Source: Arcticibacter tournemirensis (GTDB taxonomy: Bacteria; Bacteroidota; Bacteroidia; Sphingobacteriales; Sphingobacteriaceae). From it: a stretch of DNA of 64,000 nt. The position numbers and the translations under genes are program-made. The notes under the pieces were generated by a model that was not told the origin of the DNA, did no database searches, and saw only the letters and a list, made by a program, of their open reading frames with translations. This document shows, one piece after another, positions 1-10,502 of the stretch; positions within the stretch are counted from its first letter, which is position 1, and every line of letters begins with the position of its first letter. Where the stretch lies: NCBI RefSeq assembly GCF_006716645.1, contig NZ_VFPL01000001.1:496001-560000 (forward strand), read 5' to 3'.

Positions 1-4
1 TTTA

Positions 5-754
5 ATGATTGTTGTTGGTAATGGCTACGGGGTGTATTCACAAGAACAAAATGGTAATCATGCTATCAGGAACGTAGTGCTTGTACATGGCGCTTTCCTG
101 GATGGATCAGGTTGGGAAGGTGTGTATCAAGAATTAACCCAAAGGGGATATAATGTTACTGTCACGCAACACACCTTACGGGATTTCGATGATGATGTTG
201 CTGTTGTTGAAAAAGTGATTAGTCAGCAGGATGGCCCGTGCATCCTTGTAGGGCATAGCTATGGTGGGGTAGTAATTTCGGCAGCAGGGAACCACCCCAA
301 CGTGGCCGGCCTGGTGTATATTGCAGCACATGCCCCTGATGCGGGCGAGTTGAGAGCCGATCTTGTAAAAAAATATCCATCAGCTTATAAATCGCTTATT
401 AAGGGTGATGATGGATTTGACATTGTAAACCCGGCAAAGTTTGCTGAAGATTTTGCAGCTGATCTTCCCATAGAGAGAGCTACTTTTATGGCTAATGCAC
501 AGGTTCCAACCGCCGATAAAGTGTTCCGGGCTGTGATCCAAAAACCTGCTTGGAAATATAAGCCTACCTGGTATATGGTGGCTGGTGCTGATCGTATTAT
601 CAACCCTGATCTGGAACGATTTTATGCTGGTCGGGCTAAAAGCAAAAAGGTGGTTGAAATTAAGGGCGGCAGCCATGCCATCTATGCATCGCGCCCCAAA
701 GATGTTGCCGCGCTTATTATTGAAGCGGCAGCCCATGCCGGAAAAAAGGATTAA
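5..754 (+). CDS. alpha/beta-fold hydrolase
   Basis: A 249-residue single-domain alpha/beta hydrolase of the Abhydrolase_6 / salicylate-esterase-like type, probably a small-molecule esterase; the substrate cannot be told. Visible landmarks are the oxyanion-hole stretch LVHGAFLDGSGW (from about residue 26), the nucleophile elbow GHSYGG with Ser85, an acid in AGADRIINP and the late His in GGSHAIYASRP, so the triad looks complete. The first ATG lies 5 bp from the window edge, so the true start may be further upstream; a signal peptide there cannot be excluded. It converges on the response-regulator gene, 36 bp away. Fold assignment is firm, function open. Confidence 0.8.
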   Translation: MIVVGNGYGVYSQEQNGNHAIRNVVLVHGAFLDGSGWEGVYQELTQRGYNVTVTQHTLRDFDDDVAVVEKVISQQDGPCILVGHSYGGVVISAAGNHPNVAGLVYIAAHAPDAGELRADLVKKYPSAYKSLIKGDDGFDIVNPAKFAEDFAADLPIERATFMANAQVPTADKVFRAVIQKPAWKYKPTWYMVAGADRIINPDLERFYAGRAKSKKVVEIKGGSHAIYASRPKDVAALIIEAAAHAGKKD

Positions 755-790: not shown

Positions 791-1570
791 TTACTTCTTC
801 ATTGCGTATTCTGAGGGCGACATGCCAAATTGCTTGCTAAAGTTTCTTCCGAAATGCGTTTGTGAGTTATAACCAACCATGTCCGAAATCTCATATATCT
901 TGTAATTACCCTCGCGAAGAAGCTCTGCTGCTTTCTTTAAACGGGCTATATTGATAAGTTCATTGGGTGTGAGATCGGATATAGCCTTTATTTTGCGGTA
1001 TAGGGTAGGGCGGCTCATGTTCATCATGTCTGCCAGATGCTCTACATCAAGGTCAATATTAGCAAGGTTTTTATAAATGGTATCGTTCAGCTTCTCCAAA
1101 AAGTTTTCGTCGGCTTTCGAATAGGCCATTGTTTTTATATGGACAAGCGGCGAACTCGCAAAATACTGACGGATCTTATTCCGGTTAGAAAGCAGGTTCG
1201 CTATCTGAACCTTTAAATATTCAGGAGAGAACGGTTTCTCAATATAGGCATCCGCTCCCAGTTCCAGGCCTTCGATCTTAGACTGAAGGTTGTTTTTGGC
1301 TGTCAGGAGGATGATTGGAACATGGCTGAACTCAAAGTTCGACTTAATGATTTTACAAAGTTCAAAGCCGTCCATTATGGGCATCATGATGTCGCTTACG
1401 ACCAATTGAACCGCTTCCTTAAGAAGGATGTCGAGGGCTTCTTTTCCATCGTAGGCCTTTAAAATGGAATATTTATCTTCCAAATCATCAGATATGAAAT
1501 CCAAAATCTCCTCATTATCGTCCACAAGGAGGATCAATGGTTTAGTTTCCTGGTTAGTTAAATCCTGCAT
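791..1570 (-). CDS. response regulator, REC domain plus AraC-type HTH
   Basis: A 259-residue DNA-binding response regulator. The receiver domain covers about residues 11-130, with acidic pocket DD at 17-18, phospho-acceptor Asp60 (VVSDIMMP) and the switch Lys in IEKPFSP. The AraC-family double HTH fills about 155-259 (DVEHLADMMNMSRPTLYRKI and a second helix pair ending in FGMSPSEY). This is exactly the C-terminal half of a Bacteroidota hybrid two-component protein, but here it is a separate gene that starts 10 bp after the kinase stop in another frame. A GAGGG ribosome site lies in the kinase tail. Likely an activator of the neighbouring glycosidase genes (inference from the 21-bp direct repeats there). 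Confidence 0.9.
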   Translation of the reverse strand: MQDLTNQETKPLILLVDDNEEILDFISDDLEDKYSILKAYDGKEALDILLKEAVQLVVSDIMMPIMDGFELCKIIKSNFEFSHVPIILLTAKNNLQSKIEGLELGADAYIEKPFSPEYLKVQIANLLSNRNKIRQYFASSPLVHIKTMAYSKADENFLEKLNDTIYKNLANIDLDVEHLADMMNMSRPTLYRKIKAISDLTPNELINIARLKKAAELLREGNYKIYEISDMVGYNSQTHFGRNFSKQFGMSPSEYAMKK

Positions 1571-1580
1571 GTCGTAAATA

Positions 1581-4500
1581 TTAATCCCTCTTTAGTCCAG
1601 TCGGTAAATTTAATATAAAAACATTCAATGTACTATCATTCGTATCAAGAGTTAACGATCCTTGCAGTAATTCGGCAAGTGAGCGGGAAAGAGCCAGGCC
1701 TATGCCGGTTCCGGTTTGCTTGCGGGTTTCTTTGATCCGGAAGAATGAGTCGAAGATTTTGTCTTTCATATCTGCCGGGATATGATAACCATCATTTTTA
1801 ACCTGAATGGTAAATTCATTCTTCTCTTCATCTATCCGCGAGAGGGAAACGATAACCAGCTTTTCGCTATATTTTATCGCATTAGAGATCAGGTTGCTTA
1901 TTATCTTATTGAAGGCGTCTACATCCGTTGATACATTGACCGGCTCTGCCGGAACATCAATTTGAAATGTAATTTTCTTTTGTTCGGCAGCAGATTCAAA
2001 TCTCTGATGCAAATCGTGCAGCAATGATACGATATCGACATTGCTAAAGTTGAGACTGAAACTGTTTGTTTCCACCTGTCTGAAGTCAAGTAATTGCTCG
2101 GTTAGCTCCAGCAGGCGGCCTGTGTTCCTCTCCATGATCAGAAGATTTTTTTTGATGGACGGCACTTCATCTGCTTTATTAATGATTCGCTCCATTGGCC
2201 CCTTAATTAAAGTGAGAGGCGTACGGATCTCATGCGCTACATTAGTGAAGAAGTTGATTTTTGCCTGGTACACTTCCTGTTCTTTTTTATGTGCCAGAAG
2301 CTCTATTTTCCGCCGGTTCTTTTCTTTAACTTTTCTATCATATCTCTTAATGATATAGTAAAAAGCAGCCAGCAAAATCAGCATGTAGATGAGGTAAGCT
2401 GCCGGACTTTTCCATATCGGAGGAAGAATGACTACGACCAGTCTGGTATCGGTTTTATTCCACTGGCCACTGCTGTTTGACGCTTTTACGTGGAAAGTAT
2501 AAGTGCCGGGTCCCAATCCGGTAAAATAGGCCTGTCTGTTTGTTTTGAGATATATCCATCGACTGTCGAGCCCCTCGAGTTTATAGGCGTACTCGGCCAT
2601 TTCCGGAGCGGTAAAGCTCAAGGCTGCGAACTTGATATTAAATGACGACTGATCGTAGGTGAGTACAATTGTGTCTGTTAAGATAATTGACTTTTTTAAG
2701 GGCGAGTTCTCTTTATCAACAGGCAGCTCTTTGTTATAAACCTCGAAGCCTGTAATATACACAGGTGGGATATATGTGTTGTCGGTAAACTTATCCGGGT
2801 TGAAACGGATCATTCCCTTGACGCTCCCAAAGTACATATAGCCATCGGTGGTGTCTTTGAATGCTGAATTATAATTGAATTTGTCGTTCAGCAAGCCGTT
2901 TGATTTTGTAAAAGTTGTTATCTTTTCAGAAAAAGGATTAAAACACACAAGCCCTTTTGATGTGCTTATCCATAAGTTTTTTCGAGAGTCCTCCAGTATA
3001 CCGAATATAAAGTTACTGGGCAGTCCTTCGTTAATAGTGTAACTTTTAAATGTATTAGAGCCGGGCACATACTTGCATAAGCCGCCGCCATCAGTGGCTA
3101 GCCAGATTGTTCCGCCAGACGATTCAAGTATCTTGTTAATCCTGTTGCTATTTAAGCTTTTACTCTTTCTGGGATCGTTTTTGAAATAACTTTTTTTGCC
3201 GGTGTTGTTGTCAAGACGAATCAGCCCGTCTCTGATGGTACCAATCCAGATATTCCCGCTATGGTCTTCCAGAATGGAGTATACGAAGGTGCGGTAATCA
3301 TTATTAAAAAGGTTGACGTGTGTGAAGTTGTTTTTTTCTTCGTTGTAAAGATAGAGACCTCTGGTGGTTCCGATATAGGTTTTACCTGTTCTGGTTGCAA
3401 GGAAAGTGACGATAAAATTGCTCTTTAATTCATCGGGAGCTTCTCCCGAATCGTAATGCCTGATCACCTTGTTTGTTCGAATATCCATAATATCCAGGCC
3501 GTGCTCAAACGTTCCAATCCACAGTTCGTTGCCTTTAGCAAGCAAGCCATGAATGTTGGTGTACGAAATATCCGTCTTCGAGCCGGTTGGTGAAAAATGG
3601 GTAAACACACTGGTTTTGGGATTGAACTTATTAAGAGCAGCATCTTCGGTACCTACCCATATATTGCCATAATCGTCTTTGCATATTTCTCTGACGGCGT
3701 TTCCGCTGATTGAACTGTCGCTATTCGTGGGGAAGAACTTTTCAAAAAGATTGTATTGCCTGGGATAATAATTTACTCCTCCGAAGAAACTGCCCACCCA
3801 GATTCCGCCTTCCCTGTCTTTGCACAGGGTATAAACAGCATTGTCCGACAAGGAGTAAGGGTTTACGTTGTCTTTTACCAGGTTTACGACCTTCCTTGTA
3901 GAGAGATTATATATAAAAATACCCACCTCTGTTGCTATCCAGTACTCATCTCCGGTAATGTGCAGGAAATCTCTTACATAAATTTCCGACTTGTCTTTAT
4001 TGTGCGTAAGGATGTCTTCATACGTTTTACTTTCTTTGTTAAAGAGTTTGACGCCTTGATTGGATGTTCCGAGCATCAGGTATTTCCCCGCATCATATAT
4101 CCTTAAAATATATCGCGCTTTTGCCGGCTTCGAATGTTTGAAAACATCGTATGATTTAAACGACTTGTTTTTTATGTTTAACTCTCTGACCAGTCCGCCA
4201 GAAGTACCTACCCATATAGAGCCATCAGGACTTACACATAAAGAGGAGGCATCCATTATGTTTGTTGCATCGTAAAGATGCAGCTTGTTCCGGGCCGGAG
4301 TATAACAGAAAATCTTTGAATCCGACATAAACCAAACGTTACCGTATTTGTCGGTATTAAGATTGGTTATTACCATTCCTAATGTGGCCTTTACAAGAGT
4401 GAAGTTTTCTGATACTGTATTATAGCGGTATAAGCCGTTTCCGGTACCTACCCACAAGGTCCCCTTATTGTCTTCAATCAGGCTATTTACCATGTCGGTG

Positions 4501-4742
4501 CCGATACTTCCGGGATCGTCTTTATCGGGTCTGAATACTTTAAATGTGTAACCGTCAAAGCGGTTTAATCCATCAACGGTGCCAAACCATAGAAAACCAT
4601 GTTTGTCCTGAAGACTAGCGGAAATTGTATTTGTAGACAGGCCGTCTTCTACTTCATAGCGTTTGAAGTAATATGGCTGTGCGCTTAAGGATTCATTAAA
4701 CGCAAAATATATCAATAGAATGAATTGGAATGAAAGTTTCAA
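1581..4742 (-). CDS. two-component propeller sensor histidine kinase
   Basis: A 1053-residue sensor kinase. A signal peptide (about 1-21, ending SLSAQ) is followed by two seven-bladed Reg_prop propellers (about 25-680, repeated WxGTxxGL-type motifs), a Y_Y_Y domain (about 690-770), one membrane helix (about 785-805), HisKA with the phospho-His in NVAHEIRTPL, and HATPase_c with N box (NLISNAIKYS) and G boxes (TGTGIGLALS). It ends just after the ATPase, where family members of about 1350 residues carry on into REC-AraC; that part is the next gene. The start is TTG, because an in-frame stop lies directly upstream and TTG gives a good signal peptide. In this family the periplasmic propeller binds oligosaccharides; the ligand here is unknown but the GH92/GH2 neighbours suggest a glycan. 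Confidence 0.92.
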   Translation of the reverse strand: MKLSFQFILLIYFAFNESLSAQPYYFKRYEVEDGLSTNTISASLQDKHGFLWFGTVDGLNRFDGYTFKVFRPDKDDPGSIGTDMVNSLIEDNKGTLWVGTGNGLYRYNTVSENFTLVKATLGMVITNLNTDKYGNVWFMSDSKIFCYTPARNKLHLYDATNIMDASSLCVSPDGSIWVGTSGGLVRELNIKNKSFKSYDVFKHSKPAKARYILRIYDAGKYLMLGTSNQGVKLFNKESKTYEDILTHNKDKSEIYVRDFLHITGDEYWIATEVGIFIYNLSTRKVVNLVKDNVNPYSLSDNAVYTLCKDREGGIWVGSFFGGVNYYPRQYNLFEKFFPTNSDSSISGNAVREICKDDYGNIWVGTEDAALNKFNPKTSVFTHFSPTGSKTDISYTNIHGLLAKGNELWIGTFEHGLDIMDIRTNKVIRHYDSGEAPDELKSNFIVTFLATRTGKTYIGTTRGLYLYNEEKNNFTHVNLFNNDYRTFVYSILEDHSGNIWIGTIRDGLIRLDNNTGKKSYFKNDPRKSKSLNSNRINKILESSGGTIWLATDGGGLCKYVPGSNTFKSYTINEGLPSNFIFGILEDSRKNLWISTSKGLVCFNPFSEKITTFTKSNGLLNDKFNYNSAFKDTTDGYMYFGSVKGMIRFNPDKFTDNTYIPPVYITGFEVYNKELPVDKENSPLKKSIILTDTIVLTYDQSSFNIKFAALSFTAPEMAEYAYKLEGLDSRWIYLKTNRQAYFTGLGPGTYTFHVKASNSSGQWNKTDTRLVVVILPPIWKSPAAYLIYMLILLAAFYYIIKRYDRKVKEKNRRKIELLAHKKEQEVYQAKINFFTNVAHEIRTPLTLIKGPMERIINKADEVPSIKKNLLIMERNTGRLLELTEQLLDFRQVETNSFSLNFSNVDIVSLLHDLHQRFESAAEQKKITFQIDVPAEPVNVSTDVDAFNKIISNLISNAIKYSEKLVIVSLSRIDEEKNEFTIQVKNDGYHIPADMKDKIFDSFFRIKETRKQTGTGIGLALSRSLAELLQGSLTLDTNDSTLNVFILNLPTGLKRD

Positions 4743-5142
4743 TTAATTTAAAGGCTATAACTGCAAACTTATAGAAAATTGCCTTAGGTACAATCGCTTA
4801 TACTCCGGTTTCCAATAATTTTTTAATCTATCTTTATGTAAATAAAAGGGTTATAATAAGCATTTCTGAAGCGGGTGCGAAGCGGATACATCCGGGGATT
4901 ATTTGCCGAAGGGACAATAAATAATTGAATATATTTGAATAACAATCCCTTTGAGACGAAATAGAGATATTTTGAGACAAAAAACGTAGCAAAGCTTTGC
5001 CAAATGGTTTTATTTTGGATTTTTAAAGATTGCGACACACACGAGCCTATGCAGGCAGAGTACTTTGCATGGTTCGGCAATATTCCAAAACCTTATTTAT
5101 AATAGCAGACCGGGTTATAAAGGTTTATTAAACACACATTGG
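4743..5142. promoter_or_regulatory. divergent regulatory region with 21-bp spaced direct repeat
   Basis: 400 bp between the leftward sensor kinase and the rightward GH92 gene. It holds a direct repeat TTGAGAC at 4951-4957 and 4972-4978, spaced 21 bp start to start, i.e. two helical turns on one face, the spacing typical of AraC-family half-sites. A matching pair (7440-7446 and 7461-7467) precedes the second glycosidase gene. I see no convincing complete -33/-7 promoter. A short leftward reading frame at 4823-5080 has no family features and is not counted as a gene. Confidence 0.5.
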
Positions 5143-7398
5143 ATGAAATATTTAATTGTTCTTTTATTTGTTAGCAAGCTGGCTGTTGCTCAAACGCCTG
5201 ATCTTGTTAAATATGTCAACACACTGCAGGGAACCAATTCAAAACATGAGTTGACGCGCGGCAATACGTACCCCACTACAGCCCTTCCTTTTGGAATGAA
5301 TACCTGGACTCCGCAGACGGGCCGAAATGGTGATGGCTGGAAATACCAGTATTTTAAGAAAACGATCAGGGGCTTCCAGCAGGCGCACCAGTGCAGTTCG
5401 TGGAGTAATGATTATGCGGTATTTTCTTTCATGCCGGTTACCGGAGCTCTTAAGGTAAACGAAGAAGAAAGGGCTGCAGGTTTTAGTCACGATAATGAGA
5501 TTGCACGTCCCAACTATTATAAAGTAAAGCTTGATAACGGAATTACTACAGAGATGTCACCCACAGAACGCGGGGCACATCTTCGTTTCTCATTCCCTAA
5601 AGGCGAAAAAAGCTATCTGGTTCTGGACGGCTACACAAAAATGAGCATGGTGAAGATCATTCCTTCAGAACGCAAGATCATCGGATACGTTAATAATGGT
5701 CATTATGTGCCTGAGAATTTCAGGAACTACTTTGTCGTGGTATTCGATAAACCTTTCAAAAGCTACGGCACATGGGAAAACCGTACAAATTCTGTTTCTA
5801 CGGGGACATTGGAGCTGGAAGGTAAGGGAGCGGGTGCGTATATTGAGTTTAAGGCCGGAGAGCAGGTACAGGCGAAGGTTGCTTCTTCGTATATCAGTAC
5901 TGAGCAGGCCGGACTAAATTTAAAAAGAGAGCTTGGCAAGTTCAGGAACCTCGAGGCTACCAAAACGGCTGCCGCTAAGATATGGAATGAGCACTTAAGC
6001 AGGATACTTGTAGAAGGCGGCACTGAGGAGGAGAAAGCAACATTCTATTCCTGCTTCTTCAGGGCCAGTTTATTCTCCCGTCAGTTTTTTGAATATGATA
6101 AGGATGGTAAACCTTATTACTACAGCGCTTATGACGGAAAGATACACGAAGGGTACATGTACACGGACACCGGTTTCTGGGATACGTTCAGGGCTCAGTT
6201 CCCGTTAAATGCTATCATGCATCCTACTATGCATGGTCGTTATATGCAAGCTTTGCTTGCCGCTTACGAACAATGCGGATGGCTGCCTTCATGGTCGTTT
6301 CCCGGTGAAGGCGGAAGTATGATCGGAAATCATGCCATCTCATTACTTACAGACGCCTGGGTAAAAGGCATACGGACATTCGATCCGAAACAAGCTTTGC
6401 AGGCTTATCTTCATGAAGCCACTAACAAAGGTCCATGGGGCCCCGCCAATGGCAGACATGGCTGGAAGGAATATTATCAACTGGGGTACGTTCCTTACCC
6501 CGAATACGGAGAAGCTACTGCAAAAACTCTTGAATACGCGTATGATGATTTTTGCGCCTGGCAGTTATCGAAAGAAACGGATCAGCCATTTTATACCCGT
6601 ATTTTTGAACGCCAGATGTACAACTATAAAAACGTTTACGACCCATCTACGCGCTTTATGAGAGGCAGAAACAGCAAAGGGGAATGGAAAGCCAACTTTG
6701 ATCCTATTGAGTGGGGCGGTCCCTATACCGAAGGTAATGCCTGGCATTGGCAGTGGTCGGTTTTTCATGATGTTCAGGGACTGATCAACCTGATGCAGGG
6801 AGAGAAAAATTTTACTGCGAAGCTTGATTCGGTGTTTTCAGAGCCTAATAAAGTGAATACAGGAACCTATGGTGGAATGATACACGAGATGACTGAGATG
6901 GTGATGGCGAATATGGGGCAGTATGCTCATGGCAATCAACCGATTCAGCATATGATCTATTTGTATAACTATGCGGGTCAACCCTGGAAGACTCAATATC
7001 ATGTACGTCAGGTAATGAGCCGTTTGTATAATTCTACTGAAAACGGGTATCCCGGAGACGAAGATCAGGGTCAGACTTCGTCATGGTATGTTTTGAGCGC
7101 TTTAGGCTTTTATAGTGTTTGTCCCGGCACTGATCAATATGTAATCGGCAGTCCGGTATTTAATAAGGTGACTATTACTCTGGAGAATGGGAAGAAGTTT
7201 GTGATCCAGGCGCGTAATAACAATGCGCAGAACGTATATATCCAGTCGGCAAAGCTTAACGGAAAAGACTATACTCCTACTTATATAAAACACTCAGACA
7301 TTACAAACGGCGGACTGCTGGAGTTTGATATGCAGGCTCAGCCCGCAACGCAAAGAGCGCAAAGTGTATCTGACCGGCCTTTTTCGTTATCGCGCTGA
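5143..7398 (+). CDS. GH92 family glycosidase (alpha-mannosidase type)
   Basis: A secreted glycoside hydrolase of family 92, which releases mannose from alpha-mannosides in a calcium-dependent, inverting reaction. The ATG at 5143 is chosen over an in-frame ATG 26 codons earlier because it opens a clear signal peptide (MKYLIVLLFVSKLAVAQ); the product is 751 residues, normal for the family. Family landmarks are the N-terminal VNTLQGTNS and YPTTALPFGM, the QAHQCSSWSNDY stretch, TDTGFWDTFRA, EGNAWHWQW with the presumed catalytic Glu, and GDEDQGQTSSWYVLSALGFY near the C-terminus. It probably acts in the periplasm or at the surface with the two following glycosidases, and is a likely target of the adjacent regulator. 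Linkage specificity cannot be read from sequence. Confidence 0.93.
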   Translation: MKYLIVLLFVSKLAVAQTPDLVKYVNTLQGTNSKHELTRGNTYPTTALPFGMNTWTPQTGRNGDGWKYQYFKKTIRGFQQAHQCSSWSNDYAVFSFMPVTGALKVNEEERAAGFSHDNEIARPNYYKVKLDNGITTEMSPTERGAHLRFSFPKGEKSYLVLDGYTKMSMVKIIPSERKIIGYVNNGHYVPENFRNYFVVVFDKPFKSYGTWENRTNSVSTGTLELEGKGAGAYIEFKAGEQVQAKVASSYISTEQAGLNLKRELGKFRNLEATKTAAAKIWNEHLSRILVEGGTEEEKATFYSCFFRASLFSRQFFEYDKDGKPYYYSAYDGKIHEGYMYTDTGFWDTFRAQFPLNAIMHPTMHGRYMQALLAAYEQCGWLPSWSFPGEGGSMIGNHAISLLTDAWVKGIRTFDPKQALQAYLHEATNKGPWGPANGRHGWKEYYQLGYVPYPEYGEATAKTLEYAYDDFCAWQLSKETDQPFYTRIFERQMYNYKNVYDPSTRFMRGRNSKGEWKANFDPIEWGGPYTEGNAWHWQWSVFHDVQGLINLMQGEKNFTAKLDSVFSEPNKVNTGTYGGMIHEMTEMVMANMGQYAHGNQPIQHMIYLYNYAGQPWKTQYHVRQVMSRLYNSTENGYPGDEDQGQTSSWYVLSALGFYSVCPGTDQYVIGSPVFNKVTITLENGKKFVIQARNNNAQNVYIQSAKLNGKDYTPTYIKHSDITNGGLLEFDMQAQPATQRAQSVSDRPFSLSR

Positions 7399-7513: not shown

Positions 7514-8557
7514 ATGAAGTTGAACCTGTTCTATTTAGTTTTTATAGTTACTACCAGCTGTTTCTTCTCATTACAGGCGCAGGAACGCGATAACATGCAT
7601 GCCGCGCCAGCACCACTGTTCCGCGATCCGGTCACCGATGGTGCCGCTGATCCCGTAGTCTTCTGGAATCATAAAGAAAAAGCGTGGTGGATGCTTTATA
7701 CACAGAGAAGGGCGAATTCGGAAACAGCCGATGTTGCTTATTGTTATGGGAATGCTATTGGTATCGCTTCGACCGAAGATAAAGGACGTACATGGGCTTA
7801 CCGTGGAACACTTAATCTTGACTTTGAAAACGGTCATAATACGTTCTGGGCTCCTGATATTGTTTTCCATAAAGGGAAATATCACTTATTTGTTTCTTAT
7901 ATCCGGGGTGTATATAACCATTGGGCAGGAAAGCCACGAATGGTACATTATACCAGCAAAGATCTGTGGAACTGGAAGTTTGAAGGTTTTCCTGTATTGC
8001 CATTTGATAACGTAATAAATCCGACTCTTTTCCAAATGCCCGACGGCAACTGGCGGATGTGGTATAAAGGTCCCAATAGTCTTACTTATATGGCTGAGAG
8101 CAGAGATTTAAAGAAGTGGCATTCACCATCAAAGGAGCCGGTGATTAAAGGGAATCCACATGAAGGAGAAAAAGTTTTCCGATTCGTAGGATCCTATTGG
8201 ATGCTTACTGATGAATGGTCGGGCATGAGGATATATAAATCTGCGGATCTTGAACATTGGGAGAAACAAGGAAAAATACTTGATAAAGCCGGGAAGAGGC
8301 CAGATGATACACCTACCGGCGCTCATGGCGACGTGGTTGTAGTGGGCAATAAGGCGTATGTGTTTTATTTTACGCATCCTGGCAGAAAGGCGCATTCAGC
8401 AGCAGATATTCGTCCGGATGGGGTGCTTCCCTACGAGTTTCGACGCTCATCCATACAAGTAGCCGAACTCGTATTAAAAGATGGTACTCTTACCTGTTTA
8501 AGAGATGAGCCTTTTGATTTTGAAATGACGCCGCCGACGGAGAGAGATATAAAATGA
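7514..8557 (+). CDS. beta-propeller glycoside hydrolase (GH43-like)
   Basis: A 347-residue secreted protein with a signal peptide (about 1-22, ending SLQAQ) and a five-bladed-propeller glycosidase fold of the GH43/GH117 kind. Blade-like repeats are visible: ADPVVFWNHKEKAWWMLYT, FWAPDIVFHKGKYHLFVSY, INPTLFQMPDGNWRMWYKG, EGEKVFRFVGSYWMLTDEW and GAHGDVVVVGNKAYVFYF. Acidic residues in ADP, APD and EGEK sit where clan-F propellers carry catalytic residues, but I cannot settle the family number or the substrate. It lies 115 bp after GH92 and 97 bp before GH2 on the same strand. Its own upstream repeat pair suggests a separate promoter under common control. Confidence 0.8.
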   Translation: MKLNLFYLVFIVTTSCFFSLQAQERDNMHAAPAPLFRDPVTDGAADPVVFWNHKEKAWWMLYTQRRANSETADVAYCYGNAIGIASTEDKGRTWAYRGTLNLDFENGHNTFWAPDIVFHKGKYHLFVSYIRGVYNHWAGKPRMVHYTSKDLWNWKFEGFPVLPFDNVINPTLFQMPDGNWRMWYKGPNSLTYMAESRDLKKWHSPSKEPVIKGNPHEGEKVFRFVGSYWMLTDEWSGMRIYKSADLEHWEKQGKILDKAGKRPDDTPTGAHGDVVVVGNKAYVFYFTHPGRKAHSAADIRPDGVLPYEFRRSSIQVAELVLKDGTLTCLRDEPFDFEMTPPTERDIK

Positions 8558-8654
8558 AGTACATCGCTGGATTGGTAAGGTCTGAAAATTAGACTTAGCT
8601 GATGTGGATTGTGGCTCTGATGATTACCAGAACAAGTTAAACGACAATTATATA

Positions 8655-10502
8655 ATGAAAAAGACGTATTTATTTCTGCTTTTTGTGCTGCTAAGCCAGA
8701 TTGGTGTAAACGGACAGAGCCCTCAGTGGCAAATAGTGAAGGGAAAGATCACTTCTCCATGGAGTGAAAATGTAAATCCATCGCGGGTATTACCCGAATA
8801 TCCCCGTCCACAAATGGTGAGGGAAAACTGGGCAAACTTAAATGGACTGTGGAACTATTCTATATTGCCTAAAGATGGCGCTAAACCATCGGCTTACCAG
8901 GGTAAGATATTAGTACCCTTTGCTGTAGAATCGGCACTCTCGGGTGTGGGAAAACGGGTTGGAAAGGATAGTATTCTTTGGTATAACACTTCTGTAAGTA
9001 TACCATCAGCTATGAAAGGGAAAAGGGTGCTTTTGCATTTCGGTGGTGTTGACTGGGAAACTGAGGTTTATGTGAATGGCAAGAAGGTGGGAATGCATCA
9101 GGGCGGTAATGATCCCTTTTCATTCGATATCACTTCGAGTTTAAAAAAGAGTGGAAAACAAGAGATTTCGGTACGGGTATGGGATCCTACGGATGAAGGT
9201 CCTCAACCACGAGGCAAACAGGTTAGGCGGCCCGAAGGAATCTGGTATACTCCCGTTACTGGTATCTGGCAGACTGTTTGGCTGGAAGCGGTTGCTCAAA
9301 CTTATATAAGTGGCACAAAGCAAACACCAGACATCGATAAAAAAGCGCTGATCGTTAGTGCTTCTGTTGAAAATGCTGTTAAAGGCGATAAGGTGAAGAT
9401 CTCTGCCTGGGATGGTAAATCGAAAGTGGCAGAAACAACGGTTGATGCGGGAACTGAAACCGCTCTTAATATAGCGAATCCCAAACTATGGTCGCCAGAC
9501 AGCCCTTTCTTATATGACCTCCGTTTGTCAGTGATCAGGAATGGTAAGACGATAGATGAGGTGAAAAGTTATTTTGCGATGCGGAAGTCCTCTATGGGTA
9601 AGGATGCAAACGGCATACAAAGAATGCTGCTGAATAATGAGTTCGTATTCCAATATGGGCCTCTTGATCAGGGCTGGTGGCCCGACGGGCTTTACACTGC
9701 TCCAACGGATGAGGCCTTGAAGTTTGATATAGAGAAGACTAAAGAAATGGGCTTCAATATGATCAGAAAACATATTAAGGTGGAACCGGCACGCTGGTAT
9801 TATTACTGCGACGTTATGGGATTGCTGGTTTGGCAGGATATGCCAAGCGGCGACCTGGGTAATCACTGGGAGATGAGGCCGGGCGTGTTTGGTCGCGCAA
9901 CAGATAAGAACCGCAGTCCTGAATCGGAAGGATATTACAGAAAAGAGTGGAATGCTATTATGGATGCTCTTCACAATTATCCTTCAATTGTAGTCTGGAC
10001 TCCTTTCAACGAGGCCTGGGGGCAGTTTAAAACCGAAGAGATTGTGGAATGGACGATGAAAAAAGACCCTTCTCGTTTAATAAATACGGCAAGCGGTGGT
10101 AATTTCCATCCTGTAGGGCATATCATCGACCTGCACAACTATCCTGAACCATTAATGCCGGATCCACGTACCTACGGTGCTGAAAGGGCGCTTGTGCTAG
10201 GCGAGTTTGGAGGTCTTGGACTGCCGGTAGATGGTCATGTATGGCAGCAGAAAGACAACTGGGGATATCAGAGCTTTAAAAGTGCGGATGCGCTTTTTGA
10301 AAGATATTCTTCTTTCATGAATTCGCTTGAGGGGTTAATCAAAGCGGGACTTTCTGCTGCTGTGTACACGCAGACAACAGATGTTGAAGTTGAAACGAAT
10401 GGTCTTATGACTTACGACAGGAAGGTAATAAAAGTGCCGGAAGCAAAGCTGAAACAGGTTCATCAAAAGCTGTACAATAAATCTCTTGTAAAGTTGCCGT
10501 AG
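8655..10502 (+). CDS. GH2 family glycosidase
   Basis: A 615-residue secreted GH2-type enzyme (beta-galactosidase/beta-glucuronidase superfamily). ATG 8655 is preferred over an in-frame ATG 17 codons upstream because it starts the signal peptide MKKTYLFLLFVLLSQIG. The order is a sugar-binding jelly roll (about 40-215, ending near the WLEAV strand), an immunoglobulin-like domain (to about 310) and a TIM barrel. The acid/base Glu is in WTPFNEAWG and the nucleophile Glu in VLGEFGG. It lacks the extra C-terminal domains of LacZ and resembles the short GH2 enzymes common in Bacteroidota. It is the last gene of the glycosidase run and is followed by a strong terminator. Substrate unknown. Confidence 0.9.
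   Translation: MKKTYLFLLFVLLSQIGVNGQSPQWQIVKGKITSPWSENVNPSRVLPEYPRPQMVRENWANLNGLWNYSILPKDGAKPSAYQGKILVPFAVESALSGVGKRVGKDSILWYNTSVSIPSAMKGKRVLLHFGGVDWETEVYVNGKKVGMHQGGNDPFSFDITSSLKKSGKQEISVRVWDPTDEGPQPRGKQVRRPEGIWYTPVTGIWQTVWLEAVAQTYISGTKQTPDIDKKALIVSASVENAVKGDKVKISAWDGKSKVAETTVDAGTETALNIANPKLWSPDSPFLYDLRLSVIRNGKTIDEVKSYFAMRKSSMGKDANGIQRMLLNNEFVFQYGPLDQGWWPDGLYTAPTDEALKFDIEKTKEMGFNMIRKHIKVEPARWYYYCDVMGLLVWQDMPSGDLGNHWEMRPGVFGRATDKNRSPESEGYYRKEWNAIMDALHNYPSIVVWTPFNEAWGQFKTEEIVEWTMKKDPSRLINTASGGNFHPVGHIIDLHNYPEPLMPDPRTYGAERALVLGEFGGLGLPVDGHVWQQKDNWGYQSFKSADALFERYSSFMNSLEGLIKAGLSAAVYTQTTDVEVETNGLMTYDRKVIKVPEAKLKQVHQKLYNKSLVKLP

Follow-up and report, generated by a model that had tools for sequence, protein, structure and literature searches.

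Bacteroides hybrid two-component systems (HTCS), BT4663 and BT4124 among them, carry a sensor, HisKA-HATPase, receiver (REC) and AraC-type helix-turn-helix (HTH) domains one after another in a single polypeptide, which has an S/CHIP loop and is encoded beside glycan genes (PMC11253607, PMC3878776). The loop is tied to an inhibitory contact between the receiver and the DNA-binding domain (Gao, Wu and Stock; PMC11253607). According to the same report, HTCS are considered dependent on the tether between kinase and regulator: it is held to relax the specificity of the two for each other, and it keeps two DNA-binding domains close together, which is said to require the conserved S/CHIP-DK inhibition (PMC11253607). 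The motifs recognized by Bacteroides HTCS are direct repeats, with tandem sites on average 21 bp apart (PMC3878776). Two-component genes are known to undergo both fusion and fission (PMC3018481, PMC4603909).

Here we describe a locus in a 64,000-nt stretch of Arcticibacter tournemirensis DNA (hereafter the window) in which the domains of an HTCS are divided between two genes. A word-based search of the open-access literature found no paper describing a split HTCS, which is weak evidence of absence. As far as that search shows, a widespread untethered HTCS lineage that has kept the autoinhibition loop and, it appears, the operator would be new.

Kinase and regulator genes of the window

The first gene encodes a sensor histidine kinase of 1053 aa (1581..4742, minus strand) with Reg_prop repeats, Y_Y_Y, HisKA and HATPase_c domains and no receiver domain. 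The second encodes a free-standing response regulator of 259 aa (791..1570, minus strand) consisting of Response_reg and HTH_18/HTH_AraC. The Reg_prop/Y_Y_Y sensor with HisKA and HATPase_c, the REC domain with an AraC-type HTH output and the S/CHIP loop of the regulator, which reads SHVP, are all features of HTCS. Unlike the Bacteroides proteins, however, kinase and regulator are two proteins encoded by ORFs in different frames, as they are in relatives, some of which have the two genes unlinked or separated. As this is not a single polypeptide, we do not class the locus as a strict HTCS. The pair resembles classical two-component systems in its separate, usually adjacent genes and in encoding kinase and regulator as two proteins, each with its phosphorylation site intact; it differs from them in its apparent derivation from HTCS and in retaining the AraC-type output domain and the S/CHIP loop.

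At the junction (1568..1600, minus strand) the regulator ATG (1570-1568) lies 10 nt past the TAA stop of the kinase (1583-1581) and in another frame. The regulator frame is open from 1591 and thus has 8 nt (1584-1591) in common with the kinase frame ahead of the kinase stop; skipping one base within this overlap would join the two frames on paper. The split and the overlap had both been described, with the same positions and lengths, in the initial annotation of this DNA, and both hold. The GAGGG ribosome site that was offered there as an argument for fission ends 15 nt before the ATG. This is far for a Shine-Dalgarno site, and the argument is weak.

The longest kinase frame (4742, minus strand) opens with TTG directly behind an in-frame TAA and has no ATG start nearby; the true start may be this TTG or another codon. 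An alpha/beta hydrolase gene (2-754, plus strand) enters from the edge of the window, its convergent end lying 36 bp from the regulator stop. The source genome (5.66 Mb in two contigs) contains 14 REC-AraC matches at 1e-40 or better, 12 in long frames and two free-standing, and it has a second split pair whose two genes overlap by ATGA.

Catalytic residues are invariant in the aligned split loci (rows). Among those with an aligned kinase domain, 71/71 have the kinase His and 71/71 the N-box Asn, and the REC Asp is present in 83/83 split rows. A regular-expression search of 79 kinases recovered the H-box in 69, G2 in 73 and the N-box in 20, the expression being too strict for the N-box. In the S/CHIP loop of the 83 split rows the first position was S or C in 81, H was found in 83 and P in 82, and the remaining position was I in 71, V in 10 and L in 2; in 52 fused rows the counts were 43 for S, 51 for H and 52 for P. 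We also compared evolutionary rates at kinase-regulator contact positions, presumably equivalent to those of the EnvZ/OmpR and HK853/RR468 work, in 71 split and 32 fused distinct rows, having set aside 12 split rows with no kinase domain that could be used and 20 fused loci that were distant or long. No significantly slower evolution of contact residues was seen in split rows compared with fused ones, whether for DHp (p = 0.076), for REC alpha-1 (p = 0.81) or for the two combined (p = 0.27), and tighter evolution of these contacts in split pairs is thus unsupported.

We consider it highly probable that the locus is a genuine two-gene split hybrid two-component system derived from HTCS, and propose that it operates as follows. 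The ancestor would have been an ordinary one-polypeptide Bacteroidota HTCS with a periplasmic Reg_prop/Y_Y_Y sensor, HisKA-HATPase, REC and AraC HTH. Breakage of the linker between HATPase and REC, in an ancestor common to many Sphingobacteriaceae and Chitinophagaceae, would have yielded a kinase in the membrane and a soluble REC-AraC regulator translated on its own, in most cases from the adjoining gene. The periplasmic propeller would sense a glycan product, whereupon the kinase would autophosphorylate and hand the phosphate to the regulator in trans. Phosphorylation would free the DNA-binding domain to bind a tandem site at 4950-4982, and the bound regulator would turn on the divergent GH92, GH43-like and GH2 genes. 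We infer that the pair is HTCS-like in sensing and DNA binding and classical in phosphotransfer.

Split and fused forms in relatives

In a search of 41 genomes, i.e. the source genome and 40 relatives, 10 relatives had a regulator 68-87% identical to that of the window, and in 10/10 it occupied a separate short frame of 264-297 aa. Among the best 150 matches in 399 genomes of the family (E values up to about 6e-99), 94 were in short frames and 55 in frames of more than 900 aa; the remaining match occupied a frame of 470 aa. The comparison of orthologues that had been proposed with the initial annotation thus returned split genes in all ten relatives with a regulator in the 68-87% range, with fused forms also present in the family. 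Among these best matches the fused relatives reached 74% identity to the window regulator, so identity alone does not tell split from fused. At the level of the class, 9/395 genomes, the source genome included, reached 1e-80; the 10 matches comprised six in short frames and four in frames of over 1300 aa. Two loci carry unexpected titles, one Williamsia (an actinomycete; L101) and one Cellulophaga (L129). Their genes group with Chitinophagaceae and Dyadobacter rows, which may reflect mistaken titles or horizontal transfer.

The junctions of the split pairs are heterogeneous. For the 77 pairs with a kinase frame just upstream, two rows of which are copies of others, the regulator was in frame +2 relative to the kinase in 50, in frame +1 in 17 and in frame 0 in 10. 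Measured between the kinase stop and the furthest upstream ATG, the gap ranged from -68 to +56 nt in these pairs, the commonest values being -16 (22 pairs) and -4 (10 pairs). After removal of the copies (L091 of L017 and L065 of L059) and addition of L097, a split pair with an in-frame stop and a 9-nt gap, 76 pairs were classified: 58 had open frames overlapping in another frame (by 2 to 415 nt), 11 had an in-frame stop and seven had no overlap. The 8-nt overlap in the window is unremarkable in this set. The closest relative (L009, regulator 87% identical) has an in-frame TAG at the junction, and another close relative (L010, 81% identical) has open frames that do not overlap. A one-base slip therefore cannot fuse the genes in the two closest relatives.

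These comparisons decide between the three readings offered in the initial annotation, i.e. gene fission, a sequencing or assembly indel and a programmed shift. If the true gene were one fused HTCS broken by an indel, the 8-nt overlap that one base would bridge and the fused relatives at up to 74% identity would be readily explained. Yet the closest relatives are themselves split at junctions that one base would not mend, and the source genome holds its second split pair; we regard an indel as extremely improbable. A programmed frameshift, yielding both the kinase and a fused protein, would accord with the overlapping open frames in 58/76 pairs, but the conserved frame relation at the junction that is expected of such a shift was not found among the 77 pairs (50, 17 and 10), and the in-frame stops (11/76) and lack of overlap (7/76) likewise leave this reading with next to no credibility. 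Split relatives and varied junctions thus rule out both an indel and a programmed shift. We conclude that the split is no sequencing error: it is genuine, dates far back and represents a rewiring shared by many related bacteria. The same split in many genomes, with differing junctions, supports the fission reading. The description of the genes as split by one base is misleading: the junctions vary freely among relatives.

Kinase and regulator are not always neighbours. In one relative (G001) the kinase most similar to that of the window has no receiver and shares 66% identity over the C-terminal part; it lies near 31-32 kb of a 98,651-bp contig (C10), and the 75% identical regulator lies near 350 kb of a 375,929-bp contig (C11). 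These positions put at least about 50 kb between the two. We found no regulator in the stretch following this kinase, and no such kinase in the 4 kb before the regulator. In Paraflavisolibacter (L088) regulator and kinase have a GH2 gene between them, and in Sphingobacterium pedocola (L138) a non-hybrid kinase is found about 4 kb beyond the regulator, past ORFs on the opposite strand. No such kinase was present on the stretch around the regulator in two incomplete metagenome bins (L077, L105), or in the genome of L139 at 1e-45. We infer that these unlinked or separated kinases and regulators are partners. The suggestion that the regulator would be diffusible rather than membrane-tethered gains support from relatives of this kind.

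A further explanation is that the pair is decaying, the split being an early step of gene loss. This would fit a genome (G012) with an intact regulator frame behind a kinase remnant of 120 aa (37.5% identical), two of the 77 pairs (L074 and L137) whose upstream kinase frames measure only 87 and 51 aa, and a kinase with stop codons in a genome of the same genus (G005). Both window genes, however, are of full length with intact domains, and split regulators are conserved across genera with the catalytic Asp in 83/83, which makes decay very unlikely. In the G005 genome the kinase (L152, on contig C70) is broken by these stop codons and no such regulator was found at 1e-70.

Direction of change between split and fused forms

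A tree of the kinase domain and regulator for 135 rows (83 split, 52 fused) required four changes between split and fused labels, compared to a mean of 41.4 for shuffled labels. The window falls inside an all-split group of 49 rows, and a second all-split group contains 32; the two remaining split rows (L138 and L139) lie outside both. A regulator-only tree of 134 rows, without L097, required five label changes. These trees were built without the row of the window itself (L001), the copies L091 and L065 and the distant rows L028 and L030, and many of their deep forks are weakly supported. The groups used in topology tests were named after the trees had been seen. In a reduced set of 95 rows, 40/135 having been dropped for speed or long branches (L138 and L139 among them), a single clade of all 68 split rows was not rejected (AU p = 0.62) and had a likelihood above that of the free quick tree. 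Nesting of eight fused Mucilaginibacter-type rows with 17 split rows was also not rejected (p = 0.20).

Cock and Whitworth reportedly treated both fusion and fission of two-component genes in 2007. Because the distant HTCS rows that serve as outgroup are fused, fission is the likely direction of change at this locus, although deep branches are poorly supported. The Mucilaginibacter-type group bears on the reverse direction. Its linker has the form FMKPxILLVDD in 10/10 rows (two from one genome), with an in-frame ATG at the position where split genes begin; the nearest ATG is four codons ahead of the REC core in 29/77 split genes, and no ATG occurs at that linker position in any of 43 other fused rows. 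As the ten rows form one clade, the linker ATG counts as one event. It hints either at a re-fusion in which the former start survived or at an older internal Met that later became a start.

The split could be ancestral in the subfamily and the fused relatives later fusions. Consistent with this order are the linker ATG in all ten fused Mucilaginibacter-type rows, their weakly supported placement among split rows in the regulator-only tree and the tolerated nesting. Against it stand the fused outgroup of distant HTCS rows and the single split clade, which was not rejected and scores above the free quick tree, and we consider a split ancestor unlikely. A further, improbable reading is that split and fused forms interconvert and that the Mucilaginibacter-type linker start is still used, which would provide tethered and free regulator on the same 21-bp tandem operators. 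In 6/10 of these rows AGAGAGGAG ends about 12 nt before the linker ATG. Bacteroidota make little use of such ribosome sites, and AGAGAGGAG is therefore only a hint of an internal start.

Candidate operator and target genes

In the promoter region from which the kinase and GH92 genes diverge is a direct repeat, TTTGAGACRAAA, with a start-to-start distance of 21 bp and the arrangement TTTGAGACGAAA-N9-TTTGAGACAAAA (4950..4982, plus strand). Dinucleotide shuffles produced such a repeat at some spacing from 15 to 30 in 50/1000 cases and at 21 in 6/1000; with these frequencies the repeat alone is only suggestive of an operator. Its candidacy also draws on recurrence in other genera. Of 80 named loci, 68 offered sufficient sequence upstream together with a long kinase frame, and these (40 split and 28 fused) were surveyed. 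At up to 5/24 mismatches and a spacing of 21 bp, matches occurred in seven split and no fused upstream regions, and at up to 6/24 mismatches in 12/40 split and 4/28 fused regions, leaving 28/40 split regions without a site at this level. When the motif columns were permuted 300 times, the split counts were never reached, and the fused count at six mismatches was reached by four of the permuted motifs. Each of the other spacings from 15 to 28 gave at most one match at up to five mismatches. As in the window, 16/16 matches were on the strand opposite the kinase; not all of them are independent, since close relatives occur among the loci. In the 14/16 match loci examined, the divergent ORF was SusC-like in seven, SusD-like in one, GH43 in three, another glycosidase in one, a LacI-type regulator in one and unclear in one (three calls by Pfam, the rest by eye).

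At the orthologous locus of G004, where the divergent GH92 is 85% identical to that of the window, the best site had five mismatches. The best sites had five near the unlinked regulator of G001, six in G006 and three before the G012 regulator, and eight in G003 and at the G001 kinase. Like the tandem sites of Bacteroides HTCS, the predicted operator is a direct repeat with a 21-bp period (PMC3878776), and split and fused forms seem to share one tandem DNA-binding mode. A natural lineage that lacks the tether while keeping the S/CHIP loop and, seemingly, the 21-bp tandem operator tests both ideas about tethering: autoinhibition would then have a role beyond offsetting the tether, and DNA could be bound in tandem with no kinase dimer required. 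Near relatives in fused and split form are ready pairs for comparing specificity, cross-talk and output.

A looser motif matched five places in the source genome at up to two mismatches, including that of the window, compared to one for a reversed control. One two-mismatch match (L171, around 1501-1531) precedes a secreted protein that looks carbohydrate-related by eye, and the other three places are not before obvious glycan genes; we therefore claim no regulon. Within the window the candidate targets are three plus-strand genes: a GH92 glycosidase (5065..7398, with a likelier ATG start at 5143), divergent from the kinase; a GH43/GH32-like glycosidase (7514..8557); and a GH2 glycosidase (8604..10502). 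In 13/80 named loci, a relative of the GH2 gene with 63-73% identity is found no more than 6 kb from the regulator.
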